DNA from: a bacterium
Lineage (GTDB): Bacteria; UBP6; JAFGXH01
Length of the DNA: 7,452 bases
Direction of reading: 5' to 3'
Assembly (NCBI GenBank): GCA_027064085.1
Contig: JAMOQH010000148.1
Location: 1-7,452, forward strand
Position numbers and translations under genes: made by a program. This document shows, in pieces, positions 3 to 6,253 of this stretch; positions within the stretch are counted from its first letter, which is position 1; every line of letters starts with the position of its first letter. A model generated the notes under the pieces. That model worked only from the letters and a program-made list of their open reading frames with translations, made no database searches and was not told where the DNA came from.

Positions 3-884
3 ATTACAGGATTCATTAACGAAGATTGGGTTAAAAATATAGATTTTAGAACTTTAAAAAAGGAAAAAACAGATTTTTTATCAGAAGACTTAAAAGAATT
101 TAGAAAAGATTTACTTTGGAGTGTTAAGCTTAAAAACAATAAAATTTATTTTTATATCCACATAGAATTTCAATCAATACCCGATAGAAAAATGCCTTTT
201 AGATTTTTAATTTATGATAGTTTATTACATATTGATATTTTAAAAAACAGAAATAAAAATGATAAAGATAAAAAACTACCCTTTATTTTCCCTATATTAT
301 TTTACATTGGAGATAATGATTGGAAGTTTGAATTTGATTTAACTAAACTAATAGAACAACCATTTGATAATGCAATAAATTATATACCTAAATTTAATAT
401 TTATAAAATAATGTTAAACGAAAAGAGTTTAAAAGACTTAAAAGCGATAGATAATTTATTGAGTAATATTTTAGCAACAGATAATAAAGAAATTAATCAA
501 GAAGATTTAGACGAAATAATATTAAAAATAAAGCAAATATTATCAGGTTATGACAAAGAAAAAGAATTAATAATGCTTGATAAAATTAATAAATTTGTTA
601 AATTAATATCAAGTGATAGAATAAATATTAAAGAAGCTCTGAAAACTTTAAATGAGGAGGATAACATGGGTGGAATGATGAGATTGATTAATGAAATTGA
701 AGAAAGAGGAGAGAAAAAAGGTATAGAAAAGGGTATAGAAAAGGGTATAGAAAAAAAAGCAATAGAAACAGCGATTGAAATGTTAAAATTAGCTTCAGAA
801 CCTATATTTGTGTCAAAAGTTACCAAATTATCCATAGAAAAAATCAAAGAATTACAAAAAGAATTAAATATAGAAGATAACTAA
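3..884 (+). CDS. Rpn-family recombination-promoting nuclease / Transposase_31 protein, 5' end cut by window edge
   Basis: The reading frame is open from base 3, so the gene starts before the window; 293 residues are visible and perhaps 30 are missing. The ATG at 192 is internal because the conserved core begins before it. The core has the family pattern: an acidic residue in 'KDLLWSV' (Asp at 108-110), then 'IEFQS' (Glu at 165-167, Gln at 171-173) followed by 'PDRKMPFRF'. These are the D and E-x-Q parts of the PD-(D/E)XK nuclease site. Proteins of this family (E. coli RpnA is the reference) are DNA endonucleases that promote RecA-independent recombination, and some act in phage defence. The C-terminal part is charged and helical, with a GIEK tandem repeat typical of the family's variable tail. 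The gene converges with mutS. An internal Shine-Dalgarno and ATG (see 655-668) suggest a second product. Family assignment is firm; activity is inferred. Confidence 0.88.
   Translation: MTGFINEDWVKNIDFRTLKKEKTDFLSEDLKEFRKDLLWSVKLKNNKIYFYIHIEFQSIPDRKMPFRFLIYDSLLHIDILKNRNKNDKDKKLPFIFPILFYIGDNDWKFEFDLTKLIEQPFDNAINYIPKFNIYKIMLNEKSLKDLKAIDNLLSNILATDNKEINQEDLDEIILKIKQILSGYDKEKELIMLDKINKFVKLISSDRINIKEALKTLNEEDNMGGMMRLINEIEERGEKKGIEKGIEKGIEKKAIETAIEMLKLASEPIFVSKVTKLSIEKIKELQKELNIEDN
655..668 (+). promoter_or_regulatory. Internal Shine-Dalgarno and start codon inside the rpn gene
   Basis: AGGAGG at 655-660, then a 5-base spacer (ATAAC), then ATG at 666-668. This is a stronger ribosome site than those before the four complete genes in this window, which have GAGG, AGG, AGGA or a poor GGTAG. 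It lies in frame within a coding region, where such a site is not needed for the main product. Confidence 0.65.
666..884 (+). CDS. Candidate gene-within-gene: C-terminal short form of the Rpn protein (72 aa)
   Basis: An ATG at 666-668 is in frame with the rpn gene and lies five bases after a perfect AGGAGG. Translation from it would give a 72-residue protein starting MGGMMRLINEIEER and ending at the same stop as the full protein. The short form lacks the whole nuclease core and keeps only the charged helical tail with the GIEK repeats. In E. coli, rpn genes have been reported to make such short C-terminal proteins from internal starts, and these bind and block the toxic full-length nuclease. 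The position here, at the junction of core and variable tail, fits that arrangement. The sequence shows the ribosome site and the frame; the antitoxin role is inferred. The alternative is that the AGGAGG is chance from 'NEED'-type codons. Confidence 0.55.
   Translation: MGGMMRLINEIEERGEKKGIEKGIEKGIEKKAIETAIEMLKLASEPIFVSKVTKLSIEKIKELQKELNIEDN
720..755 (+). repeat. Three tandem copies of a 12-base unit encoding GIEK
   Basis: Units begin at 720, 732 and 744. The first two are identical (ggtatagaaaag) and the third differs only in its last base. Each encodes Gly-Ile-Glu-Lys, so gain or loss of a unit keeps the frame. Tails with repeated EGIEKG-like units are common in Rpn proteins and probably form a helix or coiled coil. 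The repeat is present in both the full and the short form. Confidence 0.9.
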
Positions 885-4073: not shown

Positions 4074-5537
4074 GTGATTGAAGAAAATATTAAAATACAT
4101 GATAAATTTAAATTTGAAATAAAATTTAATTATCCAATTAAAGATAAAAAAACAAAATATCAAATTGAAAGCTATTTATTCTTTCCTAAAACTCTAGGAA
4201 TGGCAGAATCATTTAATAATGATAATTTTTATGAGTCTATTCAATCTTATATTAGATTTAAAACACCTACAATTTTATTAAAAGATATAATATCTAAAAA
4301 TGGAGTCATTACAATATTAAAAAATAATTTTGAAACTTTAGTGAGGGATTTTAATAAAAAGAAAAAAAAGAACTTTGAAAATAGTATAAAACTGTATGGA
4401 GTAATCGTAAAATCTTCTTTTAGAGAACATAGTGAATTGATTCAGAAAAAAACAAATAATAAAGATATTGATTTTCTAGTTAATGAATATATTACTCATG
4501 CTAAAAAAGTTTTAGAAGAATATAGAAAGCTGAGATACATCATAACCGTTCCAACCATAAGAGAAAAAACTTTTGCTATTTATAAATATGGAAATGAATA
4601 CCTAAGCTTAATTTTCAATAAATACACTTATAATATTCTTGAAGATATAAAAAATAATGAAATTATTAATAAAAAATTTAGAATTAAATTGTTAGATTTA
4701 ATAAAAGAAGAAACTCAATACAGAATTGATAATAATCTAAAAATAAAAATCAATAAAGATGGAGACAACTCATTATTTTTATATAGGGCAAGTAATTTAA
4801 AAAAGTATATATCAAGTTTATTATTCTTAAATACAAGAACCAATAAAGCAGATACAGTGATAACTCAAATAGTTTATTCTTTAGCAGCAGCCTTATCTAT
4901 GGTTTTTGCAACTTTAGTTGCTTTTAATGCACAGCAATATTTTGGTAATTTCACAACACCATTATTTGTAGCATTAGTTATTTCTTATGTATTTAAAGAT
5001 AGAATTAAGGATTTAGTTAAGTTATATTTTCATAATAATTTTAGAAAAAGAGTTTTTGATTATAAAACAGTAATAAAAGATGATGACAACAAAATAGGAT
5101 TAGCAAATGAAAGGGCAACTTTGTTAGAATCAAAACATTTAAATGATGAAATAAAAAAAGCAAGAATACCAAAAAGATTTAGTTTAATACAAAATGGAAT
5201 GAGAGGTGAAGATATTATCCTTTATGAAAAGAAAATAAAAATATATAATACAGCATTAAATGAAAACTTAAATGGAATAAAGGTTGATGGCATAAATGAT
5301 ATTATTAGATTTGATGTAAGTAATTATTTAAAAAATATGGATAATCCAACTAAAAAAATATATTATTATGAAAATAATGATTACTCAATAATAAAAGCAA
5401 AAAGAATATATCATATAAATTTAGTAATGCTATATAAAGATAGTAAAAAAAATAAAGTACTTAAACGATTTAGAATTGTTTTAAACAGAAAAGGTATAGT
5501 TGATATAATAAATTTAGATAAACTAGGTAAAATATGA
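4074..5537 (+). CDS. Conserved-type membrane protein of unknown function, two central transmembrane helices
   Basis: This is a 487-residue protein I cannot name. It starts at GTG, chosen because GAGG (4064-4067) lies six bases before it and a consensus promoter lies just upstream. Residues 1-255 are soluble, Lys-rich and mixed alpha/beta in look, with a possible helical stretch near 130-155. Two membrane helices form a hairpin, about 262-285 (TVITQIVYSLAAALSMVFAT onward) and 292-307, joined by a short loop AQQYFGNFTTP. Basic residues follow at once (KDRIKD), so both ends are probably cytoplasmic. Residues 320-487 are again soluble and beta-rich. There is no signal peptide and no catalytic motif I can see. 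I have an impression that the AQQYFGNFT/KDRIK block recurs in unnamed proteins of other Gram-negative bacteria, but this is memory, not a search. Its TGA stop overlaps the ATG of the ATPase gene (ATGA), so the two are translationally coupled. It may anchor or regulate that ATPase. Confidence 0.85.
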   Translation: MIEENIKIHDKFKFEIKFNYPIKDKKTKYQIESYLFFPKTLGMAESFNNDNFYESIQSYIRFKTPTILLKDIISKNGVITILKNNFETLVRDFNKKKKKNFENSIKLYGVIVKSSFREHSELIQKKTNNKDIDFLVNEYITHAKKVLEEYRKLRYIITVPTIREKTFAIYKYGNEYLSLIFNKYTYNILEDIKNNEIINKKFRIKLLDLIKEETQYRIDNNLKIKINKDGDNSLFLYRASNLKKYISSLLFLNTRTNKADTVITQIVYSLAAALSMVFATLVAFNAQQYFGNFTTPLFVALVISYVFKDRIKDLVKLYFHNNFRKRVFDYKTVIKDDDNKIGLANERATLLESKHLNDEIKKARIPKRFSLIQNGMRGEDIILYEKKIKIYNTALNENLNGIKVDGINDIIRFDVSNYLKNMDNPTKKIYYYENNDYSIIKAKRIYHINLVMLYKDSKKNKVLKRFRIVLNRKGIVDIINLDKLGKI

Positions 5538-6253
5538 TTAAAATTGAACATTTATCTCAAAAATTTAATGATAATCTTGTTTTAGATGATATTTCTCTTA
5601 GTATAGAAAAAGGAAAGATACATTTTATTATAGGAATGAGCGGAACGGGTAAAACTGTTTTAGTTAAGCATATTGTAGGGCTTTTAAAGCCTGTTAATGG
5701 AAGGGTTATATTTGAAAATAAAGATATAACTAAACTTAAACAAAAGGAGATGGAAAAAACAAGAAAAAAGATAACATATATCTTTCAGAACTCAACTCTT
5801 TTTGACAATTTAACCTTGTACGAAAATATAAAATTACCCTTAATAAAAAATAAATTAGAAGGAAATGTAGAAAAGTTTTTAAAATTAGTAAATATAGAAA
5901 AATATCAAAATAAATACCCCTATGAAATTGGAGAAAGCATAAAAAAAAGAACTGCAATAGCAAGAGGATTAGCTATGAACCCTGAATACATAATTTATGA
6001 TGAGCCAACAACAGGGCTAAGTTATAGTGATGCTAGAAATATAGATAGTTTAATATCGAATATGGCAAAAGAGTTAAATGTAACAGCTATAGTTATTTCT
6101 CATGATTTAAAGTCAATATTTTCAATTGCAGATAGAATTACTATGTTACATAAGGGTAAAATTTTATTAGATGGAACAATTAATGATTTTAAAAACAGTA
6201 AAGATGAGGTAATTCAACAGTTTATAAATGCAAAAGCAGAAGGAGTTATATAA
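5534..6253 (+). CDS. MlaF-like ABC transporter ATP-binding protein with degenerate signature motif
   Basis: This 239-residue single-domain ABC ATPase is closest in pattern to MlaF/Ttg2A, which powers phospholipid movement between the inner and outer membranes with MlaE and an MCE-domain protein. Support is Walker A GMSGTGKT (34-41), then 'VLVKHIVGLLKP', the Q-loop in YIFQNSTLFDNLTLYENI (Gln85), Walker B YIIYDEPTTGL (Asp156, Glu157) and the switch His190. Two parts are abnormal: the signature, usually LSGGM, reads IGESI (132-136), and the D-loop, usually GLDP, reads GLSY (161-164). These normally act across the dimer on bound ATP, so hydrolysis may be slow, or the protein may pair with another subunit. 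The ATG overlaps the upstream stop by four bases, with AGG at 5525-5527. No permease or MCE gene is nearby. The ABC family is certain; the lipid-transport role is inferred. Confidence 0.9.
   Translation: MIKIEHLSQKFNDNLVLDDISLSIEKGKIHFIIGMSGTGKTVLVKHIVGLLKPVNGRVIFENKDITKLKQKEMEKTRKKITYIFQNSTLFDNLTLYENIKLPLIKNKLEGNVEKFLKLVNIEKYQNKYPYEIGESIKKRTAIARGLAMNPEYIIYDEPTTGLSYSDARNIDSLISNMAKELNVTAIVISHDLKSIFSIADRITMLHKGKILLDGTINDFKNSKDEVIQQFINAKAEGVI

Follow-up and report, generated by a model that had tools for sequence, protein, structure and literature searches.

Does the Rpn-family nuclease gene at the edge of this contig also encode, from a start codon within its own reading frame, a short C-terminal protein able to restrain the nuclease? 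We consider it probable (about 0.85) that we are dealing with an intragenic toxin-antitoxin of RpnL/RpnS type. The window, that is the whole stretch of 7,452 nucleotides analysed here, corresponds to contig C148 starting at contig base 1, in a 3.65-Mb assembly of 195 contigs (G000). The features on which the argument relies are the following.

3..884, + strand: rpnL, Rpn-family PD-(D/E)XK nuclease gene (PF04754 E 1.3e-24, TIGR01784 E 1.8e-16)
21..566, + strand: PF04754 nuclease domain match (G000:C148:21-566)
108..203, + strand: catalytic residues D (108-110), E (165-167), Q (171-173) and R (201-203), from the alignment with E. coli RpnA
655..660, + strand: internal Shine-Dalgarno (SD) AGGAGG, read from the sequence (anti-SD duplex -12.3 kcal/mol)
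661-665, + strand: spacer ATAAC, 5 nt, read from the sequence
666..884, + strand: rpnS, internal ORF with ATG at 666-668, 72 aa, putative RpnS-like antitoxin tail (aligned with RpnA M244; profile and fold match to 7TH0)
715..754, + strand: 12-nt tandem repeat, 3.3 copies, coding for the GIEK tetrapeptide repeat (KGIE)n in the predicted long first helix (repeat read from the sequence; AlphaFold helix 3-41)

The 5' end of rpnL and its own RpnL start lie beyond the contig edge, leaving 293 visible codons, to be compared with the ~352 aa of the full-length paralogue C104. The encoded protein matched PF04754 in Pfam and not PF12784 (PDDEXK_2). In the alignment, the equivalents of RpnA D63, E82, Q84 and R94, residues needed for activity or recombination (PMC5350276), were all intact; the equivalent of D11 falls in the missing 5' part of the gene and is present in the paralogues. 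The neighbours of rpnL in the window are mutS, an ABC ATPase, RNase HII and a protein of no known family. A phage-defence island was sought among these neighbours and none was found, and the sole PADLOC match was weak (0.0007), to a model for a putative invertase. On the one side of mutS that was read in the sister genus G001, the flank contains no rpn, which weakly fits a variable location of rpn genes. Elsewhere in the window, positions 4074-5537 encode a protein of 487 aa that belongs to no recognised family and probably has a membrane segment; the last 4 bases of its gene are also the first 4 of the ABC ATPase gene that follows (5534-6253).

The PF04754 match stops at about nt 566, before the AGGAGG at 655, so that the internal start is located at the junction between the nuclease core and the tail. 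ATG 666 is in frame with the ORF 3-884 and opens 72 codons up to the TAA at 882-884. The AGGAGG, five-base spacer, in-frame ATG and 72-residue product that the initial annotation had placed at this junction were thus confirmed letter by letter. Across the 3.65-Mb genome, AGGAGG-N4-9-ATG was counted 318 times and the reversed control pattern 93 times, the excess presumably corresponding mostly to real gene starts; the control frequency predicts about 0.004 chance occurrences, in sense and in frame, over a gene of the length of rpnL. Judging from the sequences, a chance origin of the internal start is untenable because this start is conserved across Rpn copies (see below). A search for an internal promoter gave 4 promoter-like sites versus 4.9 expected by chance, none of which stood out, and predicted RNA pairing covers the internal ATG in part.

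As a positive control, E. coli rpnA was scored in the same way: M244 (tail of 49 aa), the internal start that has been proven by mutation (PMC10327210), came out first. In E. coli rpnB, M244 came second by energy, behind a GTG far upstream. The internal Met of the window gene aligned with both RpnA M244 and RpnB M244. Taken together, the sequence data strongly suggest that a short product is made from ATG 666.

We recovered an ATG or GTG at the junction in 50/50 Rpn-clade copies covering it in eight genomes of this small phylum (18 from the window's genome and 32 from seven others), copies that are not independent, many being close kin of one another. A strong SD (duplex of -8 kcal/mol or better) preceded 41 of these 50 junctions (82%) versus 4.3% of the other in-frame ATG/GTG codons of the genes examined, with median anti-SD duplex energies of -10.3 and -0.9 kcal/mol, respectively. 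In the window's genome, all 18 junction-covering copies have AGGAGG 4-5 nt ahead of the ATG/GTG, and the motif and start are present even in copies C20 (48% identical) and C67 (32% identical). The weakest junction SDs, for instance GTCGAGGTTAAAATG in the copies from G015, another genome of the phylum, still exhibit GAGG or a similar purine run. Full-length genes of the window-type group also start at AGGAGG followed by ATG/GTG, such that both starts look strong. In many of these copies (L014, L138, L019, L139, L145), GTTATACT is conserved about 8-10 nt before the AGGAGG of the full-length start, and is likely a -10 element, the leader then being very short. The assembly is fragmented and broken at the rpn repeats, and some paralogues may be mis-joined; several near-identical Rpn tails of G015 (L150-L156) were likewise found at contig ends, again reflecting multiple copies and assembly breakage.

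The internal start appears to follow a family boundary, judging from the genes compared, being present in PF04754-type genes and absent from PF12784-type ones (the Pfam type was checked directly in representatives of each group and assigned for the rest). Among 15 PF12784-type genes of the phylum used as a negative control, none had such a site close to the tail; the strongest candidate start was a TTG at -8.2, 119 codons from the end. These PF12784 putative transposases share with the window gene the NCBI Rpn/putative transposase family name and a repeat-bearing C-terminal tail, but 15/15 lack the junction SD and start, and their tail repeats in the window's genome are of about seven residues. 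In that genome, L130-L137 and L010 have charged repeats of this kind (QREKEKA, EQEKKRA, SGEVENL) and no internal SD and start. A tailless PF04754 protein (L172) had no internal site either. The initial annotation had proposed looking for AGGAGG plus ATG in related Rpn genes, with homologues devoid of the site speaking against the idea. The PF04754-type homologues of the phylum keep it, and the PF12784-type paralogues without it are members of another Pfam family.

Outside the phylum, an SD and internal ATG were found at the tail in Clostridium, Leptospiraceae and Synergistales loci. In two Bacteroidota loci, the tail Met was kept and the SD was absent, which might be expected because Bacteroidota rely little on SD sequences. 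In Acetivibrio (L047, VLTH01000002.1), a PDDEXK_2-type-looking protein carries GIEK tetrapeptide repeats and no internal SD and start; repeats and internal start are thus separable.

A single-sequence search of the PDB gave nothing useful and a profile of the tail was needed. The profile of 14 tails matched the crystal structure of RpnA-S (PDB 7TH0) with an E value of 6.6e-6; the matches scoring above 7TH0 were repeat proteins with no single stretch over the cut-off, and were set aside. AlphaFold predicted a long helix (residues 3-41) followed by two shorter ones (46-53 and 57-66), with a mean pLDDT of 78. The predicted tail superposed on 7TH0 with TMt 0.83 (normalised to target length) and an rmsd of 0.8 over 41 columns, for a Foldseek E value of 2.1 that is alone not significant. 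The GIEK repeat begins about residue 17 after the internal Met, and known RpnS proteins carry variable-number four-residue repeats beginning 8-20 residues past the Met, according to the E. coli work. On profile and model evidence, the tail is homologous to RpnS, with a predicted three-helix fold and a long first helix.

The toxin-antitoxin-in-one-gene design that the initial annotation had suggested by reference to E. coli is therefore supported by the core residues, the aligned start, the tail homology, the repeats and the conservation. We infer the antitoxin role of the short product from its family membership, and its synthesis, its inhibitory effect and an anti-phage role by analogy with published E. 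coli work. In those E. coli studies, the toxicity of the full-length protein is neutralised by the short form and an anti-phage effect was shown; the short form inhibits both nuclease activity and growth arrest, these E. coli proteins being the sole members tested. RpnA-L and RpnA-S form a 2:2 complex, and one extra repeat in only one partner abolishes recognition. By analogy, one mRNA, or a shorter internal one, would be translated from two starts. The first product would be the full-length Rpn nuclease, a non-specific DNA endonuclease acting as the toxin, and the second the helical tail of 72 residues, with AGGAGG-5nt-ATG at 666 as its initiation site. Once free, this tail would use its repeat-bearing long helix to pair with its counterpart in the full-length protein and would thereby hold the nuclease inactive, until the release of the latter under some infection-related condition.

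The window's genome contains 15 near-identical paralogues with 15 different tails, which differ in repeat number (1 to 11 units) and in the sequence of the C-terminal helix, one tail being cut by a contig end. The mean pairwise identity between these 15 copies was 81% upstream versus 61% in the last 36 residues, both values being ungapped and lowered somewhat by offsets at fragment ends. One may tentatively imagine, as a rather doubtful possibility, that at least 15 Rpn nucleases are each made private by their own tail and repeat length, each antitoxin restraining its own toxin only, and that core-deleted copies serve as free antitoxins against particular partners.

In three core-deleted copies of G000, C159 (L139), C151 (L145) and C102 (L140), the core is shorter by 468, 348 and 627 bp, respectively, all multiples of three, and each deletion is flanked by direct repeats some 9-11 bp long (AAAAGAATT, AAGACTTAAAA, TGATAAAATC). 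Each retains the internal SD, the start and the tail. C151 and C102 are well inside their contigs and C159 is close to a contig end. That these copies are kept as free antitoxins is suggestive only, since three in-frame deletions under free decay have a chance of about 1/27.

The junction AGGAGG-ATG could be a by-product of conserved Glu-Glu-Asp coding that ribosomes do not use. Many copies indeed encode the SD by (E/K/Q)-E-D codons, so that part of the signal follows the amino acids. However, the SD survives changes of residues (EQGGDM, NGGDTM, KKGDIM) and of codon frame, the latter differing between lineages: xAG GAG GAN (e.g. GAG GAG GAT), CAA GGA GGT or AAT GGA GGA GAT. This argues that nucleotides are what selection keeps. 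Because the 50 copies are not independent, synonymous recoding was performed on 18 non-redundant genes, with the codon usage of the examined genes of their own genome. The SD was stronger than codon usage predicts, with a combined P of ~5e-6. Gene by gene, these tests were weak (mostly P 0.02-0.5), a point in favour of the by-product reading, and their strength appeared only in combination. The combined value indicates that a nucleotide signal is selected beyond the protein sequence; as far as these comparisons go, the junction SD is the result partly of amino-acid choice and partly of codon choice. The nearly constant 5-nt spacing, the replacement of ATG by GTG in two genes and the use of the aligned position in E. 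coli RpnA also speak against unused Glu-Glu-Asp coding, which we regard as quite unlikely.

The start might instead be used to make a short protein that is not an antitoxin and that serves either as a subunit with a structural role, in the manner of Cas11d in relation to Cas10d, or as an autoregulator that binds DNA. The C-terminal part of the tail is helix-turn-helix-like, TrpR-like and resolvase DNA-binding domains are among its Foldseek neighbours (at low confidence), and the 2:2 complex would suit a subunit, but in the only members tested the short form inhibits the nuclease and its growth arrest, which makes this alternative improbable. That the gene is what remains of an IS-like transposase, ending in a repeat tail and serving in no toxin-antitoxin, would agree with the putative transposase annotation of the family and with the many near-identical copies and truncated remnants in the genome. 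Since neither terminal repeats nor target duplications were found for rpn genes (PMC10327210), the catalytic residues, internal start and tail are all kept here, and even the nuclease-deleted copies are in frame with their tail retained, such an origin seems very unlikely. We thus retain the RpnL/RpnS-type toxin-antitoxin as the most probable reading.

The design itself is already published, the case for intragenic Rpn antitoxins consisting of E. coli and one C. difficile gene; the window gene is a further member, from a distant phylum, with better comparative evidence. It shares with E. coli RpnA-E and RpnP2 (Zhong et al., 2023, PMC10327210) a PF04754 core with the D, E, Q and R residues, an internal SD and ATG at the aligned place, a three-helix tail and variable four-residue repeats near the tail start. 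The tail is longer (72 residues versus 49 in RpnA and 53 in RpnB), and the internal SD is a perfect AGGAGG versus AAGGAG in both RpnA and RpnB. A further difference from the E. coli rpn genes is that a single AT-rich genome contains at least 18 copies bearing the junction. The C. difficile gene, from which RpnS is made at an internal start, is also from outside Proteobacteria (PMC10327210), but it belongs to a different phylum and was tested only after cloning on a plasmid in E. coli. The core-deleted copies resemble the stand-alone rpnS genes of E. coli (rpnES/ypaA and rpnCS) in encoding a tail protein without nuclease core, although the latter are duplicated tails downstream of intact rpn genes, whereas in C159, C151 and C102 the core has been deleted in frame from within an rpn gene whose internal start is kept.

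Beyond the published design, our analysis adds three points: the boundary between the two families, the tails that look private to each copy, and the copies deleted of their core, in which the tail is kept where the toxin is lost. The comparative sequence evidence shows nucleotide-level selection on the internal start across a distant AT-rich phylum. Should the private pairs be real, the tail array would amount to a collection of pair specificities inside one cell, on which diversifying selection acts, and the many close paralogues, each with a different tail, provide a ready set for asking if repeat number sets pair specificity.
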